Below, one piece after another: positions 27,948 to 52,000 of a stretch of 64,000 nucleotides of DNA (position 1 is the stretch's first letter; each line of letters starts with the position of its first letter). The notes under the pieces were generated by a model that was given only the letters and a program-made list of their open reading frames with translations, was not told the DNA's origin and ran no database searches. The stretch is from Laspinema sp. D2d. GTDB taxonomy: Bacteria > Cyanobacteriota > Cyanobacteriia > Cyanobacteriales > Laspinemataceae. The translations under genes and the position numbers were made by a program. The stretch covers positions 1 through 64,000 of the forward strand of contig NZ_JAMXFC010000035.1 in NCBI RefSeq assembly GCF_025370755.1, in the 5' to 3' direction.

Positions 27948-30899
27948 TTAGCTTAAATCCGGTTCAGGTTGCACTTGCTTTTTCTGGCGCGATCGCAGTG
28001 CTGCTGCTGCTTTGAGGATTCTCAGGCGATAGGGGTCAGAATCTTTGCGCCAATACACCCTATTTCCCCGAATTTCGGCACAGTTTTCTTCTAATCTTTT
28101 TTGCCAATTTTTGAGGGTTTTAATCTCCCAGGGTCGGTCTAGCAATCCTCGATTTTCTTCTTGATGGGTCAGTTTTACCAGTTTTTCATACTGGGGATAG
28201 TCCGGAGTTAAGCAGGCATATTTCCGATGGAGGATGGGCGGATTATCGTCCTTGTCATAGTCCCGATAAATTACCCGCAAATCGATTAAATCAATATCCA
28301 TTTGGGTATGTAAGAGGGGATGTGCTTCTTGGTCAAAATTGGGGTAAAATAAGTAAGATATTTTTGGCTTTTTTAGGCTAAATTTAATTAAAGTGGCCTC
28401 ATCCATCCGCCCAATTGCTCGACTAACGACGCCTTCATAAATTCTCAGCAAAGGTTCGAGGGTTTCTAAGGCGGAAATATGAACCGTGAAACTGTTGGGT
28501 TTGAGCAATCCTACGGGACTATTTTGACAACTCCGGGCCACTAATGCAATATCATTTAAACTAAATACCAGTTGTTCTGCCATGATGCAGGCAGTCCGAT
28601 AAGAGGGAAATAGCGCTTTGATATCATTTTGAATTTCTAAGGGTAAATGAGACAGTTGGACTCGTTTTAATAAGTTGCTGACGGCAATATAAGTCAGGAT
28701 ATCCTTGCGGCGTTTTTCGGTGATTGCTTCCCATTCTTCCGGATGGGTGAACTCCATAATCACTTTAAAGGCGCGGCGCAAATTGCCAAATTCAGCGATA
28801 ATTTGGGGTTCTTGAGGGAGTTCGCCGGGAACTGGGAGTCTGCCGCGATCGCTGGCAAATTCCATGAGTGGCGTCAGGATTTCCCGATATTCATCAAAAC
28901 TTTTCAGCAGTTTAGGAACTGTAGTCCGACTGCGGAACCGATGCGCTTGAATCCGTTGTGCCAATTGTTGGTCCCGAAAGACAAAATAAATCCCCAATGC
29001 TACGGGAACTGCTTCGACTTGTAGAACACTTTCAATATACTGTTTTAGTTCTTCCTGTTCATAATATTTCTGAAAAGTATGGCGGCGGGTAATGACCCCA
29101 TCTCCATAGGCAACCTGACCACTATTGCGATCATCTACTAAGACTAAAGACGCCACAATTAACACTTTTTGGGTCAATTTCCAGGATTGAATCAGCGCTT
29201 GTCGGCGTTCTTCTAAATCTTCAATCACATTAATGATATAACCCAAATTCACCACATCTGCCGGAGTCAAAGGAGTATCTGGGGAATAATAGGGGTCCCA
29301 ACCACTACTGGGAAATCCTTGTTCGGCAATCCGTTTAATATCTCCCCCATGACCACATCCATAATCAAAAAAGGTCGTTCCTTCGGTAAAAAATCCCGCT
29401 TCTAATCCTAATCGCATTGGACGAGAGATGGCATTACGAACAATTGCAGCGCGATGGCGTTCGATTTTGGGGGTGGTTTTTAGGGGTTCATAGGTAGTCT
29501 TAGGTTCTGAGGTGACAATGACCGTATGTCCTTGAATTTCGACCCCCGCAGCGGCCAAATAGTCTAACCATCCATTGCGAGTTCCAATCCCCCGTGACTT
29601 GTTTAAAAGTCCTAATTTTTCTTCTTCTCGGGTGAGGGTTTCAAATAGTTCATAAAGTGGATAATCCGGGGTGACAAAGGTTTCTTTACGGTGGAGAACG
29701 GGAGGATTATCTGCTTGGCGATAGTCTCGATAGCGAATTCGGCCCTCGGGGAAATGAATCTGTAGACTGGCCTCTAATGCTGGATGCGGGTCGGTGTCAA
29801 ATTCGGGATAAAATAAATAAGAAATAATGGGTTTATCCAGGTTAAATTTAATTAAGGTTGAGCCATCAACTTGGCCTAAATGACGACGGGTAATGGCCTC
29901 GTATAAACGGAGGATGGGGTCTAAAGATTCTAGGGACCAAATATGAACATATAATGCACCGGGTAGCTTTTTTCCGAGGAGACTATTTTGGCAAGCGGTG
30001 GCAACTGCATCCGGAGATTCTAATTGGGATAGCAAGTTTTGGGCCAATTGTTTTGCTGTTGTCCAATTGCCAAATAACGCGCGAAAATTAGCGGCAATTT
30101 GGGGGGAAACTTCCGATAAGGCGGGAACGTGCTTTTTTTCCCAAATTAGACCGGCGATATAAATTAAGGCATCTTGACGGCATTGTTCCTGGATTTGGTC
30201 CCAAATTTGACTTGGAGTTGCTTCTTTAATTTGATTAAATGCCTGTTCTAAGCTGCCAAATTTTGTAACGATTTTTTGGCCGGTGGATAACTCTTTTACT
30301 TTGGGTAACCGTCCCCATTCCGCAATAAACTCCATTAACGGAGTGATAATTTCTTCCTGTTCAATTAAGGGGGTAGCATCGGGGTTGAGGGGAGGAATTA
30401 CGGAACGCGATCGCCCTTGGTTGAACTGATAAATTTGAGCATCTGCCGGATTGCGAAAGATAAAATAAACTCCCAATCCTGCCGGTGTTGCCTCTACGGA
30501 CAAAATGCGGTCCAGTTCCCTTTTCAGTTCTACTTGTTCATAATAAGTATGAACGGAATTCATGGGAATCACGCCCTCTTTTCCGTAGGCGATTTTTCCT
30601 TGATTGACCTCAGAAACAGTGACCGATGAAGCGACAATTAAGACATTGTGGGTCAAGTTCCAAGCATCCTGCAAGACATCCTGACGTTCTTCTGGGGACT
30701 GGATTACATTGAGGATATCGGCAAGATAAACAACATCCGCAGGATGGTGATTAGTATCTCCCCCATAGTCCAAAAACGTGGTTTCAGAAGTCAGGATTCC
30801 CGCTTCTCCGGCGAGACGCAGGGCACGGGGTAGATGGCGGTGAACCGATGCCAAACGGTTTAGTTTGGTTTGGGGTAGCGGCAAACTGGATTTATCCAT
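27948..30899 (-). CDS. Fused double DNA phosphorothioation-associated putative methyltransferase
   Basis: This 983-residue protein belongs to the family annotated as DNA phosphorothioation-associated putative methyltransferase (TIGR04096). It is two complete copies fused head to tail. Both halves share RHLPRAL/RNAISRPM-type openings, PADVVxLxxIxNVI, LTxxVLIVAS, the block ITPLMEF/LTPLMEF...GRLP, ACQNS/SCQNS, LIKFNLDKP/SLKKPKISYLFYP, and NPPVLHRK/NPPILHRK. The C-terminal copy (about 490-983) has an intact SAM loop, DYGCGHGGD, near 510 followed by GWDPYY. The N-terminal copy reads DYGGDTNHHPADV, a net loss of about 25 residues that removes the SAM site. The frame opens at a TTG at 30953; the ATG at 30899 (MDKSSLPLPQ) is preferred. 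It lies downstream of dndCDE in the same direction. Confidence 0.85.
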   Translation of the reverse strand: MDKSSLPLPQTKLNRLASVHRHLPRALRLAGEAGILTSETTFLDYGGDTNHHPADVVYLADILNVIQSPEERQDVLQDAWNLTHNVLIVASSVTVSEVNQGKIAYGKEGVIPMNSVHTYYEQVELKRELDRILSVEATPAGLGVYFIFRNPADAQIYQFNQGRSRSVIPPLNPDATPLIEQEEIITPLMEFIAEWGRLPKVKELSTGQKIVTKFGSLEQAFNQIKEATPSQIWDQIQEQCRQDALIYIAGLIWEKKHVPALSEVSPQIAANFRALFGNWTTAKQLAQNLLSQLESPDAVATACQNSLLGKKLPGALYVHIWSLESLDPILRLYEAITRRHLGQVDGSTLIKFNLDKPIISYLFYPEFDTDPHPALEASLQIHFPEGRIRYRDYRQADNPPVLHRKETFVTPDYPLYELFETLTREEEKLGLLNKSRGIGTRNGWLDYLAAAGVEIQGHTVIVTSEPKTTYEPLKTTPKIERHRAAIVRNAISRPMRLGLEAGFFTEGTTFFDYGCGHGGDIKRIAEQGFPSSGWDPYYSPDTPLTPADVVNLGYIINVIEDLEERRQALIQSWKLTQKVLIVASLVLVDDRNSGQVAYGDGVITRRHTFQKYYEQEELKQYIESVLQVEAVPVALGIYFVFRDQQLAQRIQAHRFRSRTTVPKLLKSFDEYREILTPLMEFASDRGRLPVPGELPQEPQIIAEFGNLRRAFKVIMEFTHPEEWEAITEKRRKDILTYIAVSNLLKRVQLSHLPLEIQNDIKALFPSYRTACIMAEQLVFSLNDIALVARSCQNSPVGLLKPNSFTVHISALETLEPLLRIYEGVVSRAIGRMDEATLIKFSLKKPKISYLFYPNFDQEAHPLLHTQMDIDLIDLRVIYRDYDKDDNPPILHRKYACLTPDYPQYEKLVKLTHQEENRGLLDRPWEIKTLKNWQKRLEENCAEIRGNRVYWRKDSDPYRLRILKAAAALRSRQKKQVQPEPDLS

Positions 30900-31017
30900 A
30901 AGATAGGAGGTGTAACTCAGCAGCGATCGTGACCCACCTTGTTCATACCACAAAACGGCTGCCGCCAGTCCAAAAAATTATCGCCGCTACCCCAGTACAG
31001 CAGAAACTGATGGAGAA

Positions 31018-31581
31018 CTAGGCGCTAAATTTACTGCGAATGTCTTCGATTCGTTTCCGGTTTACCCCTAAATCCGATTGTCCTAACCGCGATGCCGATC
31101 GCACTTGAATTACTCCCGACTTGCGATCCAGAAAAAATTCCACATCATCCACATATCCCATTAAAGCGCTGGTAAATTCAGCATACAAATAATGGGCCTC
31201 GGATTTAATAATCTTAGCATTATCCATCTCTTCAATAATCTCCTTGAGATGGGCAAAGGCTTTTTTCTCCGATGACTTATATTGTAACGGTTCAACTTTA
31301 TGTTTTTTATCCGTTTCTTCTGCTTGAGAAGAGACACAATTGGGAGAAGTTGGACAAGGGGATAATTTGCCCATACTTACTCCTAAACTGTCGGGACGTT
31401 CCCCGGAAAAGGAAAACATACTGGCAATCGTCGCATTGGGTGAAATCTCAGCAGCGAATGCCGCAGGAATTGCCGCCAAATAAAACAAAATTGCCAAGGT
31501 GAACGAAAAACAGACCGTGAGAACTTTGAAAGCAGATAACTTGTACATAAATCGGCGGTTGATGTAAAATGTTCTTTCCAT
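31018..31581 (-). CDS. DUF1499 domain lipo- or secreted protein
   Basis: The 187-residue protein has an N-terminal signal-like segment (FKVLTVCFSFTLAILFYLAAIPAAFA). The DUF1499 domain follows: SPCPTSPNCVSSQA, a helical middle, then YLYAEFTSALMGYVDDVEFFLD and a closing VRSASRLGQSDLGVNRKRIE. DUF1499 proteins are exported proteins of unknown function, common in cyanobacteria and plastids. The gene starts 25 bases after the dndE stop in the same direction, so it is co-transcribed with dndE although no phosphorothioation role is known. A start at the internal Met12 (MYKLSAF) is also possible. Confidence 0.8.
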   Translation of the reverse strand: MERTFYINRRFMYKLSAFKVLTVCFSFTLAILFYLAAIPAAFAAEISPNATIASMFSFSGERPDSLGVSMGKLSPCPTSPNCVSSQAEETDKKHKVEPLQYKSSEKKAFAHLKEIIEEMDNAKIIKSEAHYLYAEFTSALMGYVDDVEFFLDRKSGVIQVRSASRLGQSDLGVNRKRIEDIRSKFSA

Positions 31582-31606: not shown

Positions 31607-32020
31607 TCACCGTTTCCCTTGGGATTCTTTCTCCCCTGCCTGAGTCGCCACCTCGATTAAATGCTCAATTTTCTTCAGATTCGGATCTCCTGCCAGATAC
31701 CCAATCCCGCGATGCAGATGCAAGCGAAACTGATTTGCCAATGTCTCTTTATCCGTTCCCAATCCATCTTGGTGACAGCGTTGTTTCAATGCCAAAATTA
31801 AAATATCGGACATTTCCCCGCCAAAGACTCGCCAACTCATTTCGACGTTACTATCAGCGGGAATTGGCACTGGAGAAGGGATAGAAGTTTCAGATAAAGA
31901 TTTACAAAATGCCCAGCGGCATAAAATATTCCATTGGTCTATTTTCGTATAGCGTTTGAGTTTGCTAAGTTGTTCTTTAGCGGTTTGAGAGAGTTTAATT
32001 CGGTCGAGTGGTGGTTCCAT
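31607..32020 (-). CDS. dndE: DNA sulfur modification protein DndE
   Basis: DndE is a small component of the Dnd complex that binds nicked DNA and is required for phosphorothioate insertion. The 137-residue protein has the family opening RIKLSQTAKEQLSKLKRYT and WNILCRWAFCKSL. A mid-part with VFGGEMSDILILALKQRC and a closing LHLHRGIGYLAG follow. Length and motif order match the family. It starts 30 bases after the dndD stop, so the two genes are in one operon. Confidence 0.9.
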   Translation of the reverse strand: MEPPLDRIKLSQTAKEQLSKLKRYTKIDQWNILCRWAFCKSLSETSIPSPVPIPADSNVEMSWRVFGGEMSDILILALKQRCHQDGLGTDKETLANQFRLHLHRGIGYLAGDPNLKKIEHLIEVATQAGEKESQGKR

Positions 32021-32050: not shown

Positions 32051-34033
32051 TTACCAGAAATAGCCTTTTTCTACAACAGTTTTTCGGGTTTCCGGTTGAT
32101 ATTTGAGGAGATAGCTGTTGGCGATCGCCTCTTGTTCTACGAGATGTTCATACTCAGTTTTGCTAATTTCTGTATCCGTAGATAACAGAATCACTTGATG
32201 GGATGCTGATGGAAAATAGCGTTCAATCAGATTATTCCGATGGGAAGAATCCAACCGTCCTAATGGTGTATCGATCGCCACCGGGAGATGCCGTCCCGAG
32301 ACTCGCGCTAATCCCCACAAAAAGGCGATCGCTAACAACTGCTTTTCCCCGGCAGAAAGGCGATGTTTTGGAACAGGTTTACCCTCGGGGTCGTACAGGG
32401 ACAATCCAAAACTTTGCGTATCAATCGCAATCCGATGGACTAAATCCGCTTTATGTAACAGATAGCGGAAACAATCCGTTACCTCCACCTCTAACTTATT
32501 TAACTTCCGCAGGGTCAACCTTTCTTTAAACAATTTCAGGGTTTCCTGAACCTTCTTCGATGACTCAATAATATGCTCATCATTTTGGCGTTCAATACTC
32601 GTTTCACTGTACACCGCCAGTTCCTTCTTAAACCCTTCAATATCTTTACTTAACTTATCGCATCGCTGCTGACCATTATTATAGTCCCCTTGCGCCTTCA
32701 CCACTGCCGCTTGTGCCGCCTTCAATGCCGCATCCAGTTGTTCATAAATCTCCGGAGAAGGTGCAGAAGCCAATTGGCGTTCATTGAACGTAATTTCTAC
32801 TTCCAATGATTCCAAAGACTGCAACTTTTCCCCGGCCAATTTTACCTGACTTGGCAGTTCATGACGCAAAACATTCGCCAACAAAGACAGAGTTTCCTCA
32901 TCTGCCGATAACCAGATATCCTCTTCCGAACCAATTTCGCGATCGAGTGCCTCATCCTCCTGTTCCAGGAAAAACTTAATCTTATCCACCTGTTGCGGTT
33001 TCAACTTCAATTTGTCCAGATATTCTACCAGACGACTGCTGCGTTCCTTCACCACATCCCGCGCAATTTTGGCCTGAAAAGACTTCGCCTCCTGTTCCCC
33101 TTGAACCTGCACCTCAGTCAGCAAAGGTTGAATTAAAACCAGGGGTAAACTCCCCCCAGCTAATTCCCCCAAAGACTCGCGCATCTGTTCCAAACTTCCT
33201 TCTAAATTGCGCTTTTGCTTTTCTAACTGAGTCCGTTCTGCTGCAATTTTTCCTCCTTCCGAAATAAACTTATCCCAAGCATCCCGCTGCCGTTCATGGG
33301 CCTTTTCTAACTTATTTTGTAACCCGCCTAACTCTTGCTTTGCCTCCTCCAAATCTTCGTTAGATTTAGACAATTTTTGTTCAATCTCTTCCAAACTTGC
33401 CAATTGCTTTGCACTTGCCAGCTTCTTCTGTTTTCGTCGAACCAAAATATCCAAATCTATGGATAAACGTTCCGCTAACTCTAACCCCAACAGGGATTGA
33501 ATCGCATCCACCACCACCGGAGGCGGCGTTTCCTGTTCCGCCAGTTCCTTCACCTGTTCCCCATCAAATAGAAACAGATTAGAAATCCCCAACGGCAACA
33601 AATTCTCGATATATTCATCCCAAATATTCGTCAAATCTGTTCGCGGCCAATCTCCTTCCAAAATCCCTAACGTATCCTTACCATCCTTCGGATTTGCTTC
33701 CCAATAGCGCACAATCCGCAACTCCACTGCTGCATCATTTTCAAAATGCTCAAACACCAACTCAATCCGAGTTTTTTCCACCGGATCCGAATCCCGAGTT
33801 ACACACTGTGTCAGGAAATCACTATAATTCAAATTACCTCGGGTCGAACATTGAGCCCGAGGACCATAAAGCGCTAACCGAATGGCATCCATTAGGGTAG
33901 TTTTTCCCCCACCATTCATCCCTCCAAACAGGATAATTGGACGGGTTTCCCCATGAATTTGAGGACGTAAATCAATCACCTGTCGTCCCATATAAGGACC
34001 AAAATTTTGCAGAACCAGTTCAATAAAAATCAC
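32051..34033 (-). CDS. dndD: DNA sulfur modification protein DndD (SMC-like ATPase)
   Basis: DndD supplies ATPase activity to the DndCDE complex, probably for DNA structure changes or nicking. The 660-residue protein has Walker A GGMNGGGKTTLMDA near 38, long coiled coils (about 190-290 and 390-510), the ABC signature LSAGEKQLLAIAF near 557, and Walker B PVAIDTPLGRLD near 590. No Cys-pair hook is seen between the coils, unlike the second ATPase at 44049. It is separated from dndC by 115 bases that hold a C-rich repeat. Confidence 0.93.
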   Translation of the reverse strand: MIFIELVLQNFGPYMGRQVIDLRPQIHGETRPIILFGGMNGGGKTTLMDAIRLALYGPRAQCSTRGNLNYSDFLTQCVTRDSDPVEKTRIELVFEHFENDAAVELRIVRYWEANPKDGKDTLGILEGDWPRTDLTNIWDEYIENLLPLGISNLFLFDGEQVKELAEQETPPPVVVDAIQSLLGLELAERLSIDLDILVRRKQKKLASAKQLASLEEIEQKLSKSNEDLEEAKQELGGLQNKLEKAHERQRDAWDKFISEGGKIAAERTQLEKQKRNLEGSLEQMRESLGELAGGSLPLVLIQPLLTEVQVQGEQEAKSFQAKIARDVVKERSSRLVEYLDKLKLKPQQVDKIKFFLEQEDEALDREIGSEEDIWLSADEETLSLLANVLRHELPSQVKLAGEKLQSLESLEVEITFNERQLASAPSPEIYEQLDAALKAAQAAVVKAQGDYNNGQQRCDKLSKDIEGFKKELAVYSETSIERQNDEHIIESSKKVQETLKLFKERLTLRKLNKLEVEVTDCFRYLLHKADLVHRIAIDTQSFGLSLYDPEGKPVPKHRLSAGEKQLLAIAFLWGLARVSGRHLPVAIDTPLGRLDSSHRNNLIERYFPSASHQVILLSTDTEISKTEYEHLVEQEAIANSYLLKYQPETRKTVVEKGYFW

Positions 34034-34148: not shown

Positions 34149-35777
34149 TTAATTCTCTACATCATCATCATCAGAATTGATACTGGGATATTTCATCGTC
34201 CCCCAACTTAACTGTTTAATCCCAGCAACATCTCCATCAGTCGCCGAGGGTTTCATATCCCGATTTTTGAGTTGTTTAATCGCATAAACATCCCCTTCTT
34301 TCGCAGCAGTTTTAAGGTCCCGCTTGTAATGAGCATTTTCAATCGCTTCTTCCTGCGATCGCGAACTACTTTCAAAGCATTTTTCTAGCGCATCATAAAC
34401 ACCTGTTCGTCGGGATTTAGTATGATACTTGTACTCCGTCCCAATCAACTTCGACATTAATTCCAAGTGCATCGTATCGGGTTGGCAGATTTCATCTAAC
34501 ACCTCCCACTCATCACTTCCCCACAACTGATTACCCGCGCCAGGACGAGGGTCCTCAAATGGTTCCCCCGTCTCTTCTTCATAAATCTTAGGCAAACTAT
34601 CATCAAATTCATGCTTTTCTTCTAGCCAAATTTTCCGAATTTCGCTGAGTTCGTCTAATGTGATGAGGGTGATATCCCGCATATCTTCGGGACCATTTTT
34701 TCTGACTCCAGTTTGAGCCGAGAGAACTTTTCTCAGCCAATGCTCTCGCCATTTTTTTAAATAAGGTCCAGGAATAGGCACGACAGTCATTTCCCCCTCA
34801 TTATTGCGCTCAAAGAGTTCAACTTTTCCGTAAATACGACGGAAGTCTCGCTTATCGTGATCTTCATGAATATCTAATTCATTGCGAATTTCCAATAGCG
34901 GCATCATCCATTCTTTTTCGTCATCATTTTGGATCATCGCTTGCATGGATTTATCTTGATTGACCAGGGTACAAACCCAGCAACCAAAGCGAGAATCCCC
35001 ACAACTTGGGGTACTGGTATCAACGACGAGGGGACATTCATTGTCTGCGGTTGCACCCCGATACATCGTAAATAAATCTTTATTGCTTTGTCCCCAGGGA
35101 TTTGTCCATTGATTCAAATAAATCCAGACTTCATCATTCCGCCAGTCTTCGATAGGAGTATAGACTAAAGAATTAATCAAACTTGATCTAGGACTTAGGC
35201 GATCGCGCACCCTTTTTTCTTCGTGTTTTTGCATGGTTGCCGAACGGCTGACGCTTTCAGCCTTACGCATACCTAGAACAAGAATGACTTCTCCATTGTC
35301 CCTAACCATGCTACGAATGAAGTTGTTAGCTGGCTGAATTTTTAAACGATCTGTACACCAGCGAAAGCGGGATCGAGGTGCTGGATAGCCTTTTCCAATT
35401 AAACAAACCCAGAATGTATCTTTAACTTTTGGGTGAAGCAGATGTGGCTCAAATGGCATTTTTTGTTCCATCGCTGCTTCTTTGATCCGGTCGAGTGATT
35501 TGCGAACCCAAGTAGCAACGATGGGATTCTCAACCAGCGTGTCTGTCGTAATTACATGAATAGTTTTGGTTCGCTTTTCCATTGGAAGTTGAGCGACTGC
35601 ATTCCAGATTAACTGTAATGTTGCCGTGCTGTCTTTCCCACCTGAATATCCCACAATCCAGGGAACTTCATCTAAACAATATAAAGCTTGAACTTCTTGA
35701 GTTAGTTTTTCTATGTCCTCTACTAATTCATCTACAGTGCGAGGTGGGAATAATGACATTTGCGATTGTTCTGACAT
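34149..35777 (-). CDS. dndC: DNA sulfur modification protein DndC (PAPS reductase-like)
   Basis: DndC is an ATP pyrophosphatase with a 4Fe-4S cluster that activates the DNA backbone or carries sulfur. The 542-residue protein has the PP-loop YSGGKDSTATLQL near 45 and the cysteine set CPLVVD...PSCGDSRFGCWVC (four Cys) near 260-285. The C-terminal 70 residues hold two tandem 19-residue units (KRDLKTAAKEGDVYAIKQL and NRDMKPSATDGDVAGIKQL). A strong ribosome binding site (AAGGAG) precedes the ATG. It is the first gene of the leftward train and diverges from dndB. No cysteine desulfurase (dndA) adjoins it. Confidence 0.93.
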   Translation of the reverse strand: MSEQSQMSLFPPRTVDELVEDIEKLTQEVQALYCLDEVPWIVGYSGGKDSTATLQLIWNAVAQLPMEKRTKTIHVITTDTLVENPIVATWVRKSLDRIKEAAMEQKMPFEPHLLHPKVKDTFWVCLIGKGYPAPRSRFRWCTDRLKIQPANNFIRSMVRDNGEVILVLGMRKAESVSRSATMQKHEEKRVRDRLSPRSSLINSLVYTPIEDWRNDEVWIYLNQWTNPWGQSNKDLFTMYRGATADNECPLVVDTSTPSCGDSRFGCWVCTLVNQDKSMQAMIQNDDEKEWMMPLLEIRNELDIHEDHDKRDFRRIYGKVELFERNNEGEMTVVPIPGPYLKKWREHWLRKVLSAQTGVRKNGPEDMRDITLITLDELSEIRKIWLEEKHEFDDSLPKIYEEETGEPFEDPRPGAGNQLWGSDEWEVLDEICQPDTMHLELMSKLIGTEYKYHTKSRRTGVYDALEKCFESSSRSQEEAIENAHYKRDLKTAAKEGDVYAIKQLKNRDMKPSATDGDVAGIKQLSWGTMKYPSINSDDDDVEN

Positions 35778-36051: not shown

Positions 36052-37227
36052 ATGATGGACAACCACTTACCTGAGACAGAAAGTTCCCCCCGCCTCGATC
36101 CCTTCCTTGAACCCTATTTCGCCAAACATCATCGCGAAAAGTGTTATCCTGGTTTAATTTTCCGCCAGGGGAAGCGCCAGATGGTCCAAATCAATGTCCC
36201 TGCCGATGATTTGCCGACGCTTCTCCAAGCAAAACCCTCTAGTGACAATGATCCCGATTCGGGTAAAAATCGCCCAGAAGTTAAGGGTCATGCCGAGGAA
36301 ATCAAAGAGTATATTCTCAAACGTGCCAACAAAGGCACACCCTGGATTTTGGGAACTCTAACGGCAAATGTCGATCCCAGTAAGATTGATATCATTAAAT
36401 TGGGGAGAGGGATTTGCTTAGTCGTCATTCCTCGGGGGGTCAAGTTGGACATTACCGATGGACAACATCGTAAAAGTGCAATCCAAGATTTGATTATGGG
36501 TGAATTTGGCGAGGTAATTGGTGATAATGATTTCCCCATTACTCTCGTCTTAGAACCAGATTTTAACCAGTGCCAAACTGATTTTAGAGATATGGCGCAA
36601 ACGAAACAACTCGATAAATCGCTGCTGTTATCGTTTGGGGAATTTGAAGGTCGGGTCGGCATCACTAAGCGAGTTGTCGATGAAGTTTTCATGTTTCGAG
36701 GCAAGACGGAAAAGATTAAAAATTCTCCTGCTCTTAAAAAGAAATTGATTTACACAAACAATTACATAATTAGGGCGGTTAGTTCTGCATTTACTAACGA
36801 CCCAAACAATGAACTAAGAGAGTATGATGTAAATCAAGCATCAGATTCTTTAGTTAAGACCCTCAACCAGTTCTTTTCAGAATGTAGTCATAGTCGGCAT
36901 ATCTATGAAACCGAACCTGAAGATTTAACGATTGAACAAGTGGCAGAATTTCGAGAAAATTGTGTTTTGGGAATAAGTGTAGGTTTGGATATTCTAGGTC
37001 GATTGCTTTATTACACTTACAACCAACATACTATGTCTTTTGAATCCAGTCAAGTATCGCAATTAGCCCTCCTAAATTGGTCAAGAAACAGTCATTTATG
37101 GAAAGACAATGTGGTATTAATCGATCCTAAGCCTAAAAATCCAGCCAAACCCTACAAAATTTCTTATGTTTCAAGCGCAGTAAGAATTGCTGTAAATCGG
37201 GCAAAAACTCATCTAGGATGGATGTAA
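36052..37227 (+). CDS. dndB: DNA sulfur modification protein DndB (DGQHR domain)
   Basis: DndB is the regulatory or negative-effector member of dnd clusters and controls modification level in studied hosts. The 391-residue protein has the family signature DGQHRKSAIQDL near 138 and a preceding ILGTLTANVD strand. Its C-terminal half is helical. It is transcribed rightward, divergently from dndC, from the TATAAT promoter at 35923. Of the three DGQHR proteins in this window it is the one next to dndC, and I give it the dndB name on position and length. Confidence 0.85.
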   Translation: MMDNHLPETESSPRLDPFLEPYFAKHHREKCYPGLIFRQGKRQMVQINVPADDLPTLLQAKPSSDNDPDSGKNRPEVKGHAEEIKEYILKRANKGTPWILGTLTANVDPSKIDIIKLGRGICLVVIPRGVKLDITDGQHRKSAIQDLIMGEFGEVIGDNDFPITLVLEPDFNQCQTDFRDMAQTKQLDKSLLLSFGEFEGRVGITKRVVDEVFMFRGKTEKIKNSPALKKKLIYTNNYIIRAVSSAFTNDPNNELREYDVNQASDSLVKTLNQFFSECSHSRHIYETEPEDLTIEQVAEFRENCVLGISVGLDILGRLLYYTYNQHTMSFESSQVSQLALLNWSRNSHLWKDNVVLIDPKPKNPAKPYKISYVSSAVRIAVNRAKTHLGWM

Positions 37228-37303: not shown

Positions 37304-38371
37304 CTATTCCAAACGCTTCTCTTCCTCCGTTAACGGCAAATTTAAGCGCTGTTTCAGATAAGCAGTCATCCGCATTACGCTGGTTGACCCTGGGGACAGT
37401 TGACCCTTGAAAATCACCCTCCCTTCCCAGTCTAAATTCGATCGCGACCAATCGACTTGCCGTAAGGGGTCCAAATGGTCTCGCCAGGTGTCTGGATAGG
37501 TCCGGAGTAATGTTGCACCCACTGCGCCTAGTCCGATTAAGACGATCGCCTGGGTATGCAGGTAATCTCGCCGCATCTCAAAGGCGCTGACTTTTCGTTC
37601 TAATACCAATTGCCAATCTGGAATCTGCCGACTGACCGCATTCCAGTAATCCACTGCCTGTTGGATTTGTGCCTCTAGGGGTTCCCCTTCCCGGTCTGCC
37701 AATAATGTCAAGGTTGCCTGACAAATATGGGGGAGTATAAAGAGTTTACCAGACCGGGTGCTTAAATGACTGCGTTCGGTTTCGGTGAGGGTGCGGAATA
37801 CCTCCACTTGCTGATATACTCCTCTCCCTAATGCGGCAGCGCGATCGCGATGGTCATACAGCAGATTTAAGGCAGGGTCCGATCGCACTGGGTAGCGGTT
37901 GAGGTCACTAAAGATTTGCTGCGATCGCTTCAAACCCACATCCAGAAACAAAATCAGGGGAATGGTTTCATATCCCAAGTCCGGATTCTCCTTCAATGCC
38001 GATTCAAAGGCGACCCGGCGATGTTGGCCGTCATTGATGGTAAATCGCGCATCCATTGGCACTCGCAAGCGTCCGACTTTTCGCCCTTCCGCCTCGGTTC
38101 CCAGGGGTTCAAAGGTGATATCTGCATCAATAGAGGCCGTAATCGCCGAGAGGGTATAACTCTGGGGATTATCTAAAATATACTGGGTAATCTGTGGCAC
38201 TCGGGTCCGATTGAGCGATCGCCTCGCCCGATTTTCTGGCGGCGTTTCCCCCTGTTCCAAAGGGAACAGTTTCGGCAGCAGTCGCAGAGGACACATGGAC
38301 ACATAGTATTCCCGTCCTGCCTGTATTCCTCGGATGACAGGTAAGACATATTCAAAGGCCGTATTTAGCAC
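37304..38371 (-). CDS. Second DndB-like DGQHR protein
   Basis: The 355-residue protein begins FEYVLPVIRGIQAGREYYV and has the signature NDGQHRRVAFESAL near 115. It has an opening similar to canonical DndB (VLPVIRG... and LPKLF), so it may be the truer DndB by sequence, although it lies one gene further from dndC. The DGQHR core is kept, followed by IPLILFLDVGLKRSQQIFSDLN. It converges with dndB (76 bases between stops) and diverges from the third DGQHR gene. Confidence 0.85.
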   Translation of the reverse strand: MLNTAFEYVLPVIRGIQAGREYYVSMCPLRLLPKLFPLEQGETPPENRARRSLNRTRVPQITQYILDNPQSYTLSAITASIDADITFEPLGTEAEGRKVGRLRVPMDARFTINDGQHRRVAFESALKENPDLGYETIPLILFLDVGLKRSQQIFSDLNRYPVRSDPALNLLYDHRDRAAALGRGVYQQVEVFRTLTETERSHLSTRSGKLFILPHICQATLTLLADREGEPLEAQIQQAVDYWNAVSRQIPDWQLVLERKVSAFEMRRDYLHTQAIVLIGLGAVGATLLRTYPDTWRDHLDPLRQVDWSRSNLDWEGRVIFKGQLSPGSTSVMRMTAYLKQRLNLPLTEEEKRLE

Positions 38372-38577: not shown

Positions 38578-40239
38578 ATGAGTCAGTCTGGGAACTTTCC
38601 TGCTATGTTTAAGGATGTGCCTATCGAGATGAAAGTCCCCATGAACCCTCCCCGGAATCCAGCAACAGACCTTGCCAGCAAAATCCTGGAACAGGAAAAT
38701 AGCGATCGCGAAGCATTGGCGCTATTGCTGGATCGCCACCTCTCCCGCAGCGATCGCCTCCTGGTTCAGAAAACCCAGATGGGGAATACCGAGGCATTTA
38801 TTGGATCTGTGACCTTAGAATGGTTAAGCAGTCGGGTTCGTTTCGCCTCCCAACTGCCACTCTTTCAGAAAAAATATGACCCTCAAACCGATAATGTCGT
38901 CCGGGACCGGGAAACCATTGACGAACTGCTACAACGTCCCTTGGATTGGTCTCGCCAAGCAGCTTTAACCTTGTATTTAGTCGCCAGAAAAAACCATAAA
39001 TTTCCTGCTTTGTTGGTGGTGCAAAGTCCGCCCTGGGTGGATAATCCTGATGCGCCAGAGTGGGATAAAACCGGGCGATCGCGTCAATCCAGTTGTGACT
39101 TTATTTCCTTAGACAAAGACAACACCATCGGACTTTTAGAACTGTCTGAAAAAGTTGCAATTTTTGCTCTGGATGGTCAACATCGACTGATGGGAGTCCA
39201 AGGATTAATGGAACTGATTAAAACCGGACGACTCCAGCGGTACAACAAAAATAAAAAGGCCGTGGGTGCGGCAATTACCGTCGAAGATTTAAAACAACAA
39301 TATCAGGTAGAATCGGCCCACCTCCAAAATTTAGCCTCGGAAAGAATCGGGATAGAATTTATTCCCGCAGTCTTGGAAGGAGAAACCCGAGACGAAGCAA
39401 GGCGAAGAGTTCGGTCTATCTTTGTTCATGTTAACCTGATGGCTGTTAACCTGAGTAAAGGACAACTTGCTGTTTTAAATGAAGATGATGGATTTTCGAT
39501 TATCGCGCGGAAAGTTGCCGTTACTCATCCGTTATTGAAAGATAAAAAGAAACGCAATCCTCGGGTGAATTGGGACAGTGCGACTGTAGCGGCGAAATCA
39601 ACGGTATTAACCACGCTTCAGGCGCTTAAAGATATGTCGGAACGCTACTTAGGCCCGAAATTTCCCCAGTGGCGATCGGCGAATAACAAAGGGTTAGTGT
39701 CAATTCGTCCCGAAGACGATGAACTAGAGGAAGGGTTGCGGGAATTTGAGGCATTATTTGATGGATTATCCACCTTAATCAGCTATCAACAACTTGACTC
39801 CGGAACAGAAACCCCAGAAATGCGCCGGTTTAGTCAGGAAAAAGGCGGGGGTGATGGGAATTTGCTGTTTCGTCCCATTGGACAAGTTGCCTTAGCGCAA
39901 GCAATGGGAATTTTAGTATTTGAAAAAGGGTTCTCTCTGAAAGAATTGGTTGAAAAGTTGCAGGAATTTGATGTGGATGGGGGATTTAGTGGGATGGAAT
40001 ATCCCCATTCCCTCTGGTATGGGGTTCTATATGACCCGAGTAAAAAGCGGGTATTAGTTTCGGGTCGGGATTTAGCGGCGAAGTTGTTGGTGTATATTCT
40101 CGGGGGAATCGAGGATGATTATGAACGCGCCAATCTACGCAAGGCGTTAGCGGATGCGCGGACTTTTGAAGGGAAAGCAGTTAGTTTTGACGGGAAATTT
40201 GTGAAACCGAAGGAGGTGGGTTTGCCGGAGGTTTTGTAA
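38578..40239 (+). CDS. Third DGQHR domain protein, long form
   Basis: This 553-residue protein is the longest of the three DGQHR proteins. The signature reads LDGQHRLMGVQGLMEL near 200, preceded by DKDNTIGLLELSEKVAIFA and followed by an insertion (RYNKNKKAVGAAITVEDL). A HVNLMAVNLSKGQLAVLNEDDG block corresponds to the DndB segment after the signature. The extra N-terminal 100 residues and the C-terminal domain (about 400-553) are not in the shorter relatives. It probably acts in DNA modification control or substrate recognition; the exact role is unknown. It has its own promoter, so it is regulated separately. Confidence 0.8.
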   Translation: MSQSGNFPAMFKDVPIEMKVPMNPPRNPATDLASKILEQENSDREALALLLDRHLSRSDRLLVQKTQMGNTEAFIGSVTLEWLSSRVRFASQLPLFQKKYDPQTDNVVRDRETIDELLQRPLDWSRQAALTLYLVARKNHKFPALLVVQSPPWVDNPDAPEWDKTGRSRQSSCDFISLDKDNTIGLLELSEKVAIFALDGQHRLMGVQGLMELIKTGRLQRYNKNKKAVGAAITVEDLKQQYQVESAHLQNLASERIGIEFIPAVLEGETRDEARRRVRSIFVHVNLMAVNLSKGQLAVLNEDDGFSIIARKVAVTHPLLKDKKKRNPRVNWDSATVAAKSTVLTTLQALKDMSERYLGPKFPQWRSANNKGLVSIRPEDDELEEGLREFEALFDGLSTLISYQQLDSGTETPEMRRFSQEKGGGDGNLLFRPIGQVALAQAMGILVFEKGFSLKELVEKLQEFDVDGGFSGMEYPHSLWYGVLYDPSKKRVLVSGRDLAAKLLVYILGGIEDDYERANLRKALADARTFEGKAVSFDGKFVKPKEVGLPEVL

Positions 40240-40317: not shown

Positions 40318-41052
40318 ATGTCAATAACTAAGCGGTGTCTTGCAGAGTTCATTGGAACGTTCTGGTTGGTCTTTGGGGGATGTGGCAGTGCGGTACTTGC
40401 GGCCTCGTTTCCCGATTCAAGCAATGCTTTGGGAATTGGACTGTTGGGAGTGTCCCTAGCATTTGGGTTAACGGTGATGACGATGGCATACGCGATCGGT
40501 CATATTTCGGGTTGTCACTTGAATCCAGCGGTTTCCCTGGGTTTATGGGTGGGGAAGCGGTTTCCGAAGAGCGAGCTCGTCCCTTATATCAGCGCGCAAA
40601 TCGGTGGGGGGATTTTTGCTGGGGGAATTCTTTATCTGATTGCCAGTGGTAAACCTGGATTTACCCTGAGTGATGGATTTGCGGCAAATGGTTATGGCGC
40701 ACATTCTCCCGGTGGTTATTCCATGTTAGCCGCTTTGGTGGCTGAATTTGTCTTGACTTTCATGTTTTTGTTTGTGATTATGGGAGCAACCGATCGCCGG
40801 GCTCCTCAAGGTTTCGCACCTGTTGCGATCGGGTTAGCATTGACCCTGATTCATTTAATTGGCATTCCCGTTACTAATCTTTCAGTCAATCCTGCACGCA
40901 GTATCGGACCTGCCGTCTTTGTTGGGGGTTGGGCGATGGCACAACTCTGGTTATTCTTGTTAGCACCCCTTGCCGGTGCCGCTTGTGCTGGACTTGTCTA
41001 TTCCACCCTCGTAGGTGATGTGAAACTACGGCGCATGAAACTAAAGGTCTAA
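40318..41052 (+). CDS. aqpZ: Aquaporin Z
   Basis: This 244-residue membrane channel conducts water across the cytoplasmic membrane. It has six membrane helices and two half-helices with NPA boxes: [10 protein letters not shown] near 68 and [10 protein letters not shown] near 190. The selectivity residues typical of AqpZ (a His in IHLIGIPV and the Arg after the second NPA) are present, which points to a water rather than glycerol channel. It is 78 bases downstream of the third DGQHR gene and faces the next gene across a shared terminator. It is probably not part of the Dnd system. Confidence 0.95.
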
Positions 41053-44048: not shown

Positions 44049-46121
44049 TTAAAATGCTTCATCTACCTCCACCACTTCGGTATATTCAAATTCATTGGGA
44101 CTCAACTTAACTAACGGGTAGCGCATTCCTTTTAATTCAATCCAATCTTCTTCACAATCGGGTTTCGGAGAGTTATAAACAAGCACATATTCTTTACCGA
44201 TGTAAGGTTTCATTTCTTGGGCGACTTCTCCCCGCCATTGGGTTTTGGTCACTAAAACAACGAGTTGGTTAGCAAGTTGAGGCAGAATTTTGGCAATTTG
44301 GCGGCGATAAATTTCGTCTAAACTGCCAAAGGGGGAGTCCATGACGATGGGAAAGGTACTGCTATCCGGTCCCATCAGGGTGTTCTTTTTACTCCACTCG
44401 CGAACACCATCGATAATGCCGCCAATGAAGGATAAACTGAGGATTTGATTTTCGCCGGTGGAGGCAGCAACGGGGACTTCAAATCCACTCGTATTTTCGA
44501 TTAAGGTGAGTTCGTATTTGTCGCTGAGTTTGGGAAGATAGGGGGTAAAGGATATTTCGCTAAAAATTTCCTGCACTCGCTGTTCGAGTTGGGATCTAAA
44601 TTGGTTTTCTAGGCGCGATCGCACCTCGGTTAAGCGGTCGATCGCATCCTGAGTGGCGAATATCCGTTTTTTGGCTAACTCTTGTTTCTCTTCGTTGGTT
44701 TTCTGCTTTTCTAGTTGTTTATTTAAGCGGTCTATTGCCCCTTGCAAGCTATCGATCTGAGTTTGATTAGAACCCAATTCTCGGTCTAATTCACTCATTT
44801 TTCGCTCAATTTCATCGAGGCGTTTTTGTAATTCTTGAATGTTTTCATCGGGATAGCTTCGCAGCTTATCTTTGATTTCATCCAACTGGTTTTCTATGGC
44901 AGAAAGTTCAGTTCTAAATCCTTCAATCGCCTTCTGTTGGCGGTCCATTTCTTGCCAAAAGTCGGGGACTTGTTTATCGATCACCTCAACTTGGGTACTC
45001 ATGCGAATGGCAGTTTCTTCAATGTCTGCCATCCCTGCTTTATCCATCCACGATCGCACGAGTTGTCGGGCAGGATTGCCTTCACTAAGTTCGGCCCCAC
45101 AAATACAACGTTGGCGATCGAGCAATTGTTGAACGAAGGGTTGTTTAATCCCAGCAGGTAGTTCCCCTCGGTTCCGTAAATCATTGACGAAGGTTCTAAA
45201 TTCGTTAGTAAATTCTCCCAGTAAAGTGATATAACCTTGACTAGAAATAGCCCGTTTTAACGCTTCTTTAGTTTGTTTTAATTGGTGGCGAATGGAAGTA
45301 TTTTGTTCCTCTAGGTTTTTGCGCCGCTTTTGCAATTCTTCCGCCCCGCCTAATTCCAAGAGGCGATCGCTGATGGTTTTCTTCAGTTGTGCTTGTGCTT
45401 CTAACTCTTTGGTGATTTCAGTTTGTCGTTTCTGGAGGCGAGTTCCCTCTTTCTCTCGGGTTGCCTTTTCTTTTAATAACTGTTGGGTTTGGGGGTCGCC
45501 AATCGCTTTTAATTCCGTTTCTAAGCTTTTGCGGGTTTCGCCTAAGTGACGAATTGCCCGATTTAAAACTTCTAATCCTAGTAATTTCTTCGTAGCTTCA
45601 GCAATTTCAGCTTTTTTCTCAGAACGGACGATATATTCAATCCGTTCTCCATCAAAAAAGAAATATTGATGTAAACTTTCCGGTAAAATTCGACCAATGA
45701 TATCATCGGGATGTTGTTGGGGTGGAGGCGGAGACCATCTGCCATCATCTCCGGCGATCGTCATAAATAATTCACTCGACCCGTGGGTAATTCCCGTGGA
45801 GGTATTGTAAGCGCGAATTAGGCGTTTTGCTTGATAGCGCTTGCTGTCATGTTCAAACACTAATTGCACCCAACAGGCAACAGGTTCACCGGGTTTTGCT
45901 TCAGTGATGGCGCGTTTATTCACGAGGCGATCGGGTCCGGCAAAAGCAGCGGAAAATTGTTCATAAAGAACCCAAGTAAAGGCATTCATTAAAGTGGTTT
46001 TACCGGACCCGTTATTGCCATGAATAATGGTAGTATTATTCGACCCTCGGGATAAAACTATTTCGGGGGTTCTCCCATAAAATTGGCGAAAGTTACAAAG
46101 CGTGAGAGAAATCAATTTCAT
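44049..46121 (-). CDS. Second DndD-like / Rad50-like ATPase of the restriction module
   Basis: The 690-residue SMC-family ATPase has Walker A HGNNGSGKTTLMNA near 36, two long coiled coils, and a hook-like CICGAEL near 340 (Cys-x-Cys-Gly). The signature is GENQILSLSFIGG near 560, with Walker B FPIVMDSPFGSLDE near 595. The hook distinguishes it from DndD at 32051, so it is a distinct paralogue rather than a duplicate. Its start overlaps the stop of the 97-residue gene by four bases (ATGA), which implies translational coupling. With the helicase upstream it forms a likely restriction or DNA-sensing complex. Confidence 0.85.
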   Translation of the reverse strand: MKLISLTLCNFRQFYGRTPEIVLSRGSNNTTIIHGNNGSGKTTLMNAFTWVLYEQFSAAFAGPDRLVNKRAITEAKPGEPVACWVQLVFEHDSKRYQAKRLIRAYNTSTGITHGSSELFMTIAGDDGRWSPPPPQQHPDDIIGRILPESLHQYFFFDGERIEYIVRSEKKAEIAEATKKLLGLEVLNRAIRHLGETRKSLETELKAIGDPQTQQLLKEKATREKEGTRLQKRQTEITKELEAQAQLKKTISDRLLELGGAEELQKRRKNLEEQNTSIRHQLKQTKEALKRAISSQGYITLLGEFTNEFRTFVNDLRNRGELPAGIKQPFVQQLLDRQRCICGAELSEGNPARQLVRSWMDKAGMADIEETAIRMSTQVEVIDKQVPDFWQEMDRQQKAIEGFRTELSAIENQLDEIKDKLRSYPDENIQELQKRLDEIERKMSELDRELGSNQTQIDSLQGAIDRLNKQLEKQKTNEEKQELAKKRIFATQDAIDRLTEVRSRLENQFRSQLEQRVQEIFSEISFTPYLPKLSDKYELTLIENTSGFEVPVAASTGENQILSLSFIGGIIDGVREWSKKNTLMGPDSSTFPIVMDSPFGSLDEIYRRQIAKILPQLANQLVVLVTKTQWRGEVAQEMKPYIGKEYVLVYNSPKPDCEEDWIELKGMRYPLVKLSPNEFEYTEVVEVDEAF

Positions 46122-49007: not shown

Positions 49008-52000
49008 TTAAACCGTTCGATTCTCATGTCGAATCGGAATTTCAATAGTAAACTCTGTGCCTTCCCCCGGTTGGGAGGTACAGAGGAGTTGTCCATGATG
49101 TCGATCCACAATAATTTGATGACTAATTGATAATCCCAGTCCCGTCCCTTTCCCTTCCGGTTTCGTGGTAAAAAAGGTCCGAAATAGTTGTTTCTGGACT
49201 TCCTCACTCATCCCCAATCCATTGTCTGCAATGTGAATGGCGACGCCCTGATCTTTTAATTGAGTCCGAATCCGAATAATTTTAGATTCGGGTTCTTTCG
49301 GCGAAACTACAGGCGAATTCTCCTCCGATGAACCACTGGTAACCCGGGATAAATGACTCGATACCCCTGATTCTAAAGCATCGATCGCATTAGCAATCAA
49401 GTTCATAAATACCTGATTCAGTTGTCCCGGATAACAAGGGACTAAGGGGAGATTTCCATACTCTTTGATTACGGTGATGGCAGGTTTAGAACCTGTCGCT
49501 TTTAAGCGATTTGATAAAATCAACAAGGTACTATCTATTCCCGCATGAATATCAGTTTTTTGAAATACTCCGGGGTCTTTGCGGGAAAAATTCTTGAGAG
49601 ATTTGACAATTTCCTTGATCCGTTCGGTTCCCACATTCATAGATCTCAGCATTTCTGGGAAATCTTCTTGCAAATATTCTAAATCGATCGCCAAGGCATG
49701 ATTTTTGATATCGGCAACAGGTTCCGGATAGCATTGCTGATAGAGTTGCAGATGGTTAAGTAAATCTTCTGCATATTCTAGGGACATATTCAGATTGCCG
49801 TCAACGAAGCTGAGGGGATTGTTAATTTCGTGGGCGACTCCAGCGACTAACTGTCCCAGGGTAGACATTTTTTCCGTCTGAACCAGTTGTAATTGAGCTT
49901 CTTTCAAGTCCTGAAGCGACTGTTGTAAATTCTGGTATAATCGGGCATTTTCTAGGGAAATAGCCGCCTGAGATGACAGTAACTGTAAAACTTCCAGGCG
50001 ATCATGGGTAAACACGCCGGTACTGAGATTATTTTCTAAGTATAAAATCGCTACCGTGTGACTTTGGTAGGTAATGGGGAAGCACAGAATTGATTTAGGT
50101 TTCTTCGCCGTAATGTACGGATCGGTCGTAAAAACTGACTCAACTGCGGCATTATTAAGAACCAGAACCTCCCCGGTTCTATGCACATAATGGATTATAG
50201 TCAAGGGCAAACAGGAGAAATCTTCTAGGGGAACCCCTGTGCAACTAATTTCAACCGATGGGATTGTCGTGGTTACAATTTCTTCTTCAATATTTCCCGC
50301 CGCCTGGATGACTTGTTTTCCCTCTTTTTCTAAAATTAAAAACCCCGTTTGTGCCCCTGCATTTTCCAGGATGACTCGCATTAACTTATTTAAAAATTTA
50401 TCCAAAACCAGTTCTTCAGAAAGCGCTAATGCAGCTTTCATCACCGTCGTTATATCTAAGGCAGAAGTGTCTTGGTTAATACTGGTACTGGTGGTACCAA
50501 AGGAGGAAATCGTTTCTTGAATGCTAAAGGGTCGAATGACTGAACGTTGGGTGACTCGGGCTAACACTAACGGATATTTTTTTTCTAAAAATTTTACTTT
50601 AGCATTCGCTGACCAACGCACATATCCATAGTAGGCTTCCGTTAAATAAAACTGAGCAATTTGGTGACTTCCCCGCTGGAGATGAAATTCCCCAGCGAGT
50701 TCATTAGCCAGGGCTTCTTCTTGAATATATTGGCTTTCTCGCGCGTGGAGAATGGCCCGGTCATAACCGGCGATCGCCTCAGCAATGTCCCCCGCTAGTC
50801 GGGCTTTTTCCGCTTCCACCAGTTCATATTTATGCAGAAAATTATCAGGCGAAAATTCTGCCCATTTTTTCATCTTCTCTTGATTTGCCGCCACCTTATT
50901 CCCTAGCACTTCTTGTTCTGCTTCAGGCCGATTTCCATAGACTCCTAATGCAGCCAGAGAATCATAAAAATAGAAGAGGGGTAAGGGGTAAACAGCGGTC
51001 AAGCCATCTAAATAGTTAGCGGTGATCTCCGCATTTTTTAAGGCCGATTCACTTTGTCTGAATAGATAGCTGAGAATCAGTTTATTCAGGTATAAACAAC
51101 ATAAGGCGTAGCGATCGCTAGTTTGTTCATGGAGGGGTAACATGGTAAATTCATTATAAAGTTCCCCCACCAGATGTTCTGGATGATCTGCCCCGCGAAT
51201 TAAATGGGACACCACCTGCCAGTACATTTTTTGATAGTTGAGGGTATTGGTCTGCTTGAGTTTTTCCATCAACAGACTGTAAGAAGACATTTCCGCTTCT
51301 AACTGCCCCAATTCTTTCCCGGCAAAATAGGAATTAATGCAGTAGTTATAAGCACATAACACGGCATATTCTACATCTCCCGTCTCCAGTCCACTCTCAT
51401 AGGCTATCAGTAAAGGGGGAACCGTGTGGTGGAGGGGTTCCTTCCACAACCGGACATTATTATTCACCACCATCATGGTCCGGGCTTTAAGTTTCTGATT
51501 CTCGAATTGCGCCAACACCGTTAAGGCTAATTGACCAAATTGATAGCCGGTTTCAATATCTCCGACAATGCCACATAAAATTAATCCATAACAGGCATAA
51601 GCATAAGTCGATTCCTCGGTATTGCCATAGTCCAGAGACAATTTAACTTCTTCAAAAACCAGCAAGGGCAATAATAAAGGGGCAGATTGATAGGCTGGGG
51701 CAATCGCACTATTGAGAATTCGCATCGCCGCTTTTTTATCAGGATTGCTCATTTTGGGCAATTCATTTAAGGCTGCGATGTGCTGATCCGTTAATCGGGA
51801 AAACAGTTCTCCCAGTCCATTTTGAATATGCTCAAAGCTGGGTTGTTCGGGTAAGTTAACGCCTAATAAAGCCAGGGCTTCTCTCCCGGTAGCCAAGGCG
51901 TCGAGTTGTTTATTTTGCGCCGTATAAGCTTGGATTTTGACTTCATAAATTTGAATTTTATCCAGGAGAGTTTCGGCTTTTTCGAGGACAATTTGGGCGA

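Follow-up and report, generated by a model that had tools for sequence, protein, structure and literature searches.

The stretch of DNA analysed here (the window) comprises 64,000 nucleotides from the cyanobacterium Laspinema sp. D2d (contig NZ_JAMXFC010000035.1) and encodes at 27948..30899 (-) a tandem-fused protein of the TIGR04096 family (DNA phosphorothioation-associated putative methyltransferase). The protein has 983 amino acids (aa) when read from the ATG at 30899, this open reading frame (ORF) having 984 codons with the stop counted; a TTG at 30953 is a possible alternative start of the same ORF (27948..30953 (-)). The TIGR04096 profile matches twice in the one frame, with 655 bits for the C-terminal copy (C copy; profile positions 1-478) and 379 bits for the N-terminal copy (N copy; positions 64-477), both above the curated cut-off of 150 bits, and with 1037 bits for the entire protein. 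The initial annotation of the window was therefore right in describing two copies fused in one frame. A BLASTP comparison of the N half with the C half likewise confirmed its claim that the halves align (198/477 identities or 42%, 57% positives, E 2e-117), the main gap being 25 residues at the S-adenosylmethionine (SAM) loop. We argue below that these are probably two old copies that decayed in opposite ways and together amount to about one complete enzyme, the C-terminal domain of the N copy being the piece that its relatives keep.

Each copy is built of a methyltransferase part, a helical middle region and a C-terminal domain (CTD; N-CTD and C-CTD in the respective copies). In the N copy, a methyltransferase remnant without SAM site (30420..30857 (-), residues ~15-160) is followed by the middle region (30015..30392 (-), residues ~170-295), which shows a weak HNH_repeat-like match under the cut-off (E 0.16), and by the N-CTD (29511..30008 (-), residues 298-463). 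A linker predicted with low model confidence (29472..29510 (-), residues 464-476) leads to the C copy, where a complete class I methyltransferase domain (28935..29471 (-), residues 477-655) precedes the middle region (28551..28934 (-), residues 656-783) and the C-CTD (28044..28550 (-), residues 784-952).

SAM motif I and the acidic end of strand 2 are present in the C copy and absent in the N copy. As the initial annotation had noted, the C copy retains both the glycine-rich motif (FFDYGCGHGGD, 29340..29372 (-), residues 510-520) and GWDPYY at the end of strand 2 (29286..29303 (-), residues 533-538). Its estimate of about 25 residues lost from the N copy, and the SAM site with them, agrees with the half-versus-half alignment: in the N copy FLDYGGDTNHHPADVV covers the stretch from the glycine loop to past GWDP with a net loss of 25 residues, and the deletion point lies at 30744..30764 (-) (residues 46-52, GGDTNHH after FLDY). 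In the predicted model (mean predicted local distance difference test score (pLDDT) 84.9 and predicted template modelling score (pTM) 0.52 for the whole protein), the C copy runs through a strand (510-512), a helix (519-526) and two further strands (531-534 and 547-553), whereas the N copy passes from a strand at 42-44 to one at 54-59, helix A and strand 2 of the Rossmann fold being missing. Foldseek returned class I methyltransferases of the small-molecule and tRNA types among the top matches; the sole match passing E 0.001 was 3h2b_A (E 6e-4), followed by 5cm2 (Trm9-Trm112, E 2e-3). By fold and motif, the C copy is thus a putative methyltransferase.

The gene lies in a dnd cluster, where dndC (34149..35777), dndD (32051..34033), dndE (31607..32020), a DUF1499 gene (31018..31581) and then the two-copy gene follow each other on one strand, all (-). 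The dndE and DUF1499 neighbours are common to six other loci (L043-L048). Further away on the same strand are dndB (37304..38371 (-)), phosphorothioation-associated protein 4 (TIGR04062; 41201..41671 (-)) and the phosphorothioation system restriction enzyme (TIGR04095; 46481..47878 (-)). Two DGQHR-domain (DndB-like) paralogs flank dndB on the opposite strand (36052-37227 and 38578-40239 (+)) and are followed by an aquaporin gene (40318-41052), while a second DndD-like ATPase, scoring below the DndD cut-off, is found at 44049-46121 between TIGR04062 and the TIGR04095 restriction helicase.

Remains of the N copy across the family

We classed 150 distinct family proteins, two half-length paralogs having been removed from 152, with a hidden Markov model of the C copy (482 positions); the survey sets consist of relatives of the window found with its protein or with the family model, together with plasmid records, and proportions are valid for these sets only. 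The TIGR04096 cut-off is exceeded by 51 of the 59 relatives searched and by 83 of 292 genomes of the phylum. Among the cyanobacterial members, the N copy consists of a methyltransferase remnant plus CTD in 12, of the middle region plus CTD in 10, of the CTD alone in 96 and of a partial CTD in two, and is absent in 20. Thus, graded loss from the N end is seen across lineages: 98 of the 120 fused cyanobacterial proteins have an N copy reduced to the CTD or a part of it, and 108 lack any methyltransferase remnant. All nine fused proteobacterial members keep the N-CTD (eight whole, one partial), while actinobacteria contributed one single-copy member among the 150. The initial annotation had conceded that the fusion would not be unusual if family members were routinely of this length with the same two halves. 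In the sets examined, proteins of ~1000 aa are in fact uncommon, but members as a rule carry a fused N-terminal CTD, so that the concession applies by half; the lasting part of the N half is the CTD.

None of the 12 cyanobacterial remnants has the SAM segment, with 0-3 of its 26 positions filled. In seven, residues before as well as after it are retained, the picture expected of an internal deletion, which makes an early single loss likely for those seven. A matching layout occurs in five other genomes (L043 to L047, named Laspinema, Oscillatoria and Phormidium pseudopriestleyi), with the best segment 89-92% identical and one copy ending at a contig edge inside the C copy. Plasmid-borne genes of the two-CTD form are carried by Synechocystis PCC 6803 (pSYSM) and Trichormus variabilis ATCC 29413.

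Several variant forms were also encountered. In Sphingomonas (L160) the N-CTD is a 155-aa frame of its own just upstream of the methyltransferase. In three cyanobacterial members of one family (f13; L164, L165 and L176) the C-CTD match ends at about model position 427 with the N-CTD intact. One locus (L175) has two adjoining half-length relatives on opposite strands (frames of 303 and 214 aa; G000:C24:48510-48989 (+) and 49706-50161 (-)), which match only the methyltransferase part of TIGR04096, and a similar pair occurs in G007 (L171). On five proteobacterial plasmids (L154, L157, L158, L159 and L160) the gene lies closely downstream of a large FtsK/SpoIIIE-domain gene, and no Dnd or Ssp genes were found within the flanks examined there.

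We estimated the ratio of non-synonymous to synonymous substitution (dN/dS) as a ratio of means by pairwise counting over the six genomes of the close group of the window. It amounts to 0.157 for the remnant (residues 1-170), 0.251 for the middle region and 0.108 for the N-CTD of the N copy, and to 0.067, 0.052 and 0.077 for the methyltransferase, middle region and C-CTD of the C copy. Neither gaps nor stops interrupt the N half in any of the six. Together with the purifying dN/dS, this indicates that the N half is in use: the dead remnant, although less constrained than the active copy, does not decay freely in this lineage.

These observations bear on the proposal of the initial annotation that the N half is a built-in regulator or scaffold, i.e., a pseudo-methyltransferase kept to act allosterically or structurally on the active half as in active/inactive methyltransferase pairs. 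Part of this holds, as a copy with a complete SAM site does stand beside one that the 25-residue net deletion has left without a cofactor site, as in a pseudoenzyme-regulated pair, and the N fold, its SAM site gone, is nonetheless predicted with good confidence and is under purifying selection. An inactive methylase domain is also described for DndH (PMC10853773). What does not hold is the notion of the N half as mainly a pseudo-methyltransferase: an inactive methyltransferase fold is retained in just 12 of the 120 fused cyanobacterial proteins, with the CTD persisting in its stead, and the remnant is less constrained than either the N-CTD or the active copy. We accordingly consider this explanation of the N half unlikely; for Laspinema and its relatives, the remnant may have a structural or regulatory role.

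The two CTDs and their conserved positions

Two sets of positions were derived from 70 non-redundant cyanobacterial two-CTD proteins (123 usable). Set A comprises 13 positions conserved in 66-70 of the 70 N-CTDs and in at most 50 C-CTDs (K325, L327, P328, A330, Y332, N413, R419, E421, T422, F423, T438, G454 and T455), and set B 10 positions conserved in 66-70 of the 70 C-CTDs and in at most 55 N-CTDs (R346, G350, R354, G357, R358, M394, L398, V403, Y405 and E441). The N-CTD of the window has 13/13 of set A and 5/10 of set B; its C-CTD has 5/13 and 10/10, respectively. Over 132 two-CTD loci, not deduplicated, the means are 0.97 (A) and 0.34 (B) for the N-CTD and 0.32 (A) and 0.94 (B) for the C-CTD. 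Where the initial annotation saw the N half as the dead one, the C copy is thus the degenerate one as regards set A.

As a comparison we used 23 one-CTD proteins that had no part in choosing the sets. At least 10 of the 13 set A positions are present in 21 of them and at least five of the 10 set B positions in 22, amounting overall to 235/299 for A and 165/230 for B. For instance, the single-copy proteins L013 and L014 keep all 23 positions (13/13 and 10/10), and that of Nonomuraea (L153) keeps 10/13 and 5/10. The basic and glycine core of set B is old, with R346 found in 22, G350 in 18, R354 in 17, G357 in 23 and R358 in 18 of the 23. Ten proteobacterial members, likewise not used in the choice, have 7/13 to 12/13 of set A in their N-CTD (in L158, six of the eight aligned). 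The cyanobacterial pattern is that of a subfunctionalised duplicate, with complementary loss in the two copies and both sets kept in single-copy relatives, set B being the weaker of the two.

The expectation that the N-CTD as a whole is more conserved than the C-CTD was rejected: mean entropy is 1.50 and 1.40, respectively, and it is other positions that are conserved instead. Mean pairwise identity over the 70 proteins is 0.550 for the N-CTD and 0.557 for the C-CTD.

Modelled alone (residues 292-466, 175 aa), the N-CTD reaches a pLDDT of 92.6 and a pTM of 0.88. It has no match in Pfam or PHROGs and no sequence match in the PDB, and in one Foldseek run no PDB fold reached E 0.001 (best 0.21), which is not proof of a new fold; one nameless viral predicted protein was matched at E 5.7e-6. 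Stand-alone CTD frames occur in a 485-kb phage (L187, record LR745208; 3920-4516, 199 codons) and in a viral contig (L190; 4611-5126, 172 codons). In another viral contig (L193, 3287-5668), a CTD and a methyltransferase motif are fused to inorganic pyrophosphatase and phage serine protease XkdF domains in the style of polyvalent proteins.

Eight polar residues (K325, H334, K366, H387, N413, H418, R419 and K420) are fixed in all 70 N-CTDs. So many invariant polar residues, along with the occurrence of the CTD alone in the two phage-like sequences and as a separate frame in Sphingomonas, might indicate that the CTD is itself an enzyme, acting for example on phosphorothioated DNA (PT-DNA) or on a nucleotide. 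The site formed by set A would then be functional in the N-CTD and lost in the C-CTD, and the methyltransferase would supply a partner activity. However, no known fold or family is recognised for it, and the conserved polar residues would equally fit binding of DNA or of the phosphorothioate, so that we give this possibility a low rank.

Still less can be said for the N half as a whole being a non-functional relic in decay. The graded loss from the N end is what such a relic would show, but in the window lineage all three N parts have dN/dS values of 0.11-0.25 with neither gaps nor stops in six genomes, the N-CTD is nearly as conserved as the C-CTD, and it persists, whole or partial, in each of the nine fused proteobacterial members classed. 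We regard a decaying relic as very improbable.

Age of the duplication and link to phosphorothioation

In a 129-CTD tree, built by a quick method and with long branches flagged, the N and C CTDs separate, and nine of the 10 cyanobacterial single-copy CTDs, together with two actinobacterial ones, fall between the two groups, the tenth (L172) lying among the C-CTDs. In a careful 39-row CTD tree, six of seven single-copy CTDs fall with the C-CTDs (97/96), and the remaining one (L163) branches at the root as drawn. In this tree, grouping the N-CTDs of the window and its sister with their own C-CTDs is rejected (log-likelihood difference 74, approximately unbiased test p 0.0005), while neither all N as one clade (p 0.49) nor all C as one clade (p 0.40) is rejected. 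Trees of the methyltransferase part unite the N remnants in a single clade (94/85; 91/94). The split between N and C CTDs is thus old, and a recent duplication is rejected for the CTD. A recent tandem duplication or a chimeric assembly in this genome, the latter named by the initial annotation as grounds for discarding the fusion, is hardly credible: the methyltransferase part taken alone leaves N with its own C unrejected (p 0.096), but the old CTD split, the same layout in five related genomes and the finding of nothing that points to an assembly fault all speak against it.

Among the 292 phylum genomes, 83 have TIGR04096, 73 have DndC and 72 have both, so that the family is present in 72 of 73 DndC genomes (Fisher p 3e-55, a value that ignores shared descent). 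Of the 11 genomes with TIGR04096 and no DndC over the cut-off, seven have DUF4007, which was identified as SspB by PADLOC in the one case tested, and four have neither; a further four genomes have DUF4007 without TIGR04096 or DndC. Within flanking sequence of at most 6 kb, or less where a contig ended, dndB-E genes were found at 12 of 80 loci and Ssp-like genes at eight, one locus having both. The idea that the gene is strictly tied to dnd operons was rejected, 61 of the 80 loci having no Dnd or Ssp-like genes in their flanks. In the window itself, dndCDE and dndB are nearby, and for Rhodococcus qingshengii RL1 a published table lists dndABCDE, a TIGR04096-type gene and, next to it, protein 4 as one consecutive series (PMC8416521). 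Two viral contigs have SspC- and SspD-like genes beside the TIGR04096 gene, which is single-copy in one (L188) and of the two-CTD form in the other (L192). The tight genome-level link in the sampled DndC genomes makes the family a candidate for a missing part of phosphorothioate biology.

Interpretation and comparison with known systems

Beyond this link, we infer the following function and history. An enzyme linked to phosphorothioation, comprising a SAM methyltransferase, the helical middle region and the CTD, would have undergone an ancient internal duplication. The N copy would then have lost its SAM site while keeping set A of its CTD, and the C copy would have kept the methyltransferase and set B while letting set A go. 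Most of the cyanobacterial lineages examined would have discarded the dispensable portions of their N copy and retained an N-CTD ahead of the methyltransferase, while Laspinema and a few relatives would have kept the longest remnant. Set B might seat the CTD on its own methyltransferase, and set A might contact a substrate or partner, such as PT-DNA or the Dnd/Ssp machinery. With decay running in opposite directions in the two copies, the fused chain would hold about one full enzyme's worth of conserved sites. Among the explanations considered, this is the one that we find probable.

Several observations weigh against it. Mere wear would not predict the selection that acts on the dead remnant (0.157), and the pTM of 0.52 makes the packing of the domains uncertain. 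The N/C contrast is seen at 132/132 loci for A and 131/132 for B, counts that are not deduplicated and are partly circular because the sets come from that contrast. In the one-CTD proteins set B is the weaker, with at least eight of 10 positions in just 11 of 23, and M394 (4/23) and Y405 (6/23) seem not to be ancestral but to have been acquired later by the C copy. Many of these rows are close kin and hence not independent draws; one (L172) has 2/13 of A, and a second CTD was not found in its genome, while a divergent one (L162) has 0/13 of A and 3/10 of B. The C-terminal CTDs of the 10 proteobacterial members keep 0-2 positions of A and 2-5 of B, so that this second CTD looks degenerate in both respects and the trade between A and B is shown for cyanobacteria only. 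Five of the 12 remnants have no aligned residues before the SAM segment and begin past it, so that one shared deletion is not shown for those five. Lastly, the proteobacterial N-CTDs are nested within the 129-CTD tree, and the methyltransferase part does not by itself decide the history: besides the p of 0.096 given above, N attaches on the cyanobacterial side in its trees, although an older origin is not rejected (p 0.39).

A wider and distinctly tentative proposal is that the CTD is an undescribed domain, possibly of a new fold, which reads or processes PT-DNA; that cyanobacterial phosphorothioation has in TIGR04096 an overlooked component that is nearly obligate; and that methylation is a normal step of the DNA-sulfur system, the reciprocal decay separating two activities and marking the residues of each. 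The name of TIGR04096 says no more than putative methyltransferase; the contrast in conservation between the two fused CTDs suggests which residues serve which job. The separate N-CTD frame of Sphingomonas and the stand-alone CTDs of the phage-like sequences are small proteins open to direct testing.

The closest comparison is with the TIGR04096 model itself, which describes one methyltransferase-CTD unit of 478 positions, while the window protein has two such units, the first without SAM site. Both copies exceed 150 bits, and the gene belongs to a dnd cluster, where dndE and DUF1499 immediately precede it; the 478 positions, however, exclude the N-terminal CTD that most members sampled carry. 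The single-copy proteins (L013, L014 and L153 of Nonomuraea) resemble a unit of the window protein in joining methyltransferase, middle region and CTD, but have one CTD. In the proteobacterial proteins, among them the split form of Sphingomonas (L148, L150, L151 and L154-L160), a CTD precedes the methyltransferase as in the window protein; unlike in the latter, there is no remnant in front, and the CTD behind the methyltransferase is either highly divergent or truncated.

Among phosphorothioation-linked systems, DndH is described as carrying a catalytically dead domain of the adenine-methylase (DAM) type, proposed to block target sites (PMC10853773). The likeness, drawn by description only, lies in a dead methylase domain within such a system; DndH differs in being a separate restriction protein, and the abstract, outline and methylase passages of that source do not name the TIGR04096-type family. 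Our literature searches, whose coverage largely excluded subscription journals, found no study of the family or of its two-CTD layout. A different kind of precedent is provided by pairs of the METTL3-METTL14 type, which combine one active and one SAM-less copy and in which the dead partner works through its methyltransferase fold. In the family of the window protein, by contrast, the part that persists across relatives is not the methyltransferase fold but another domain.

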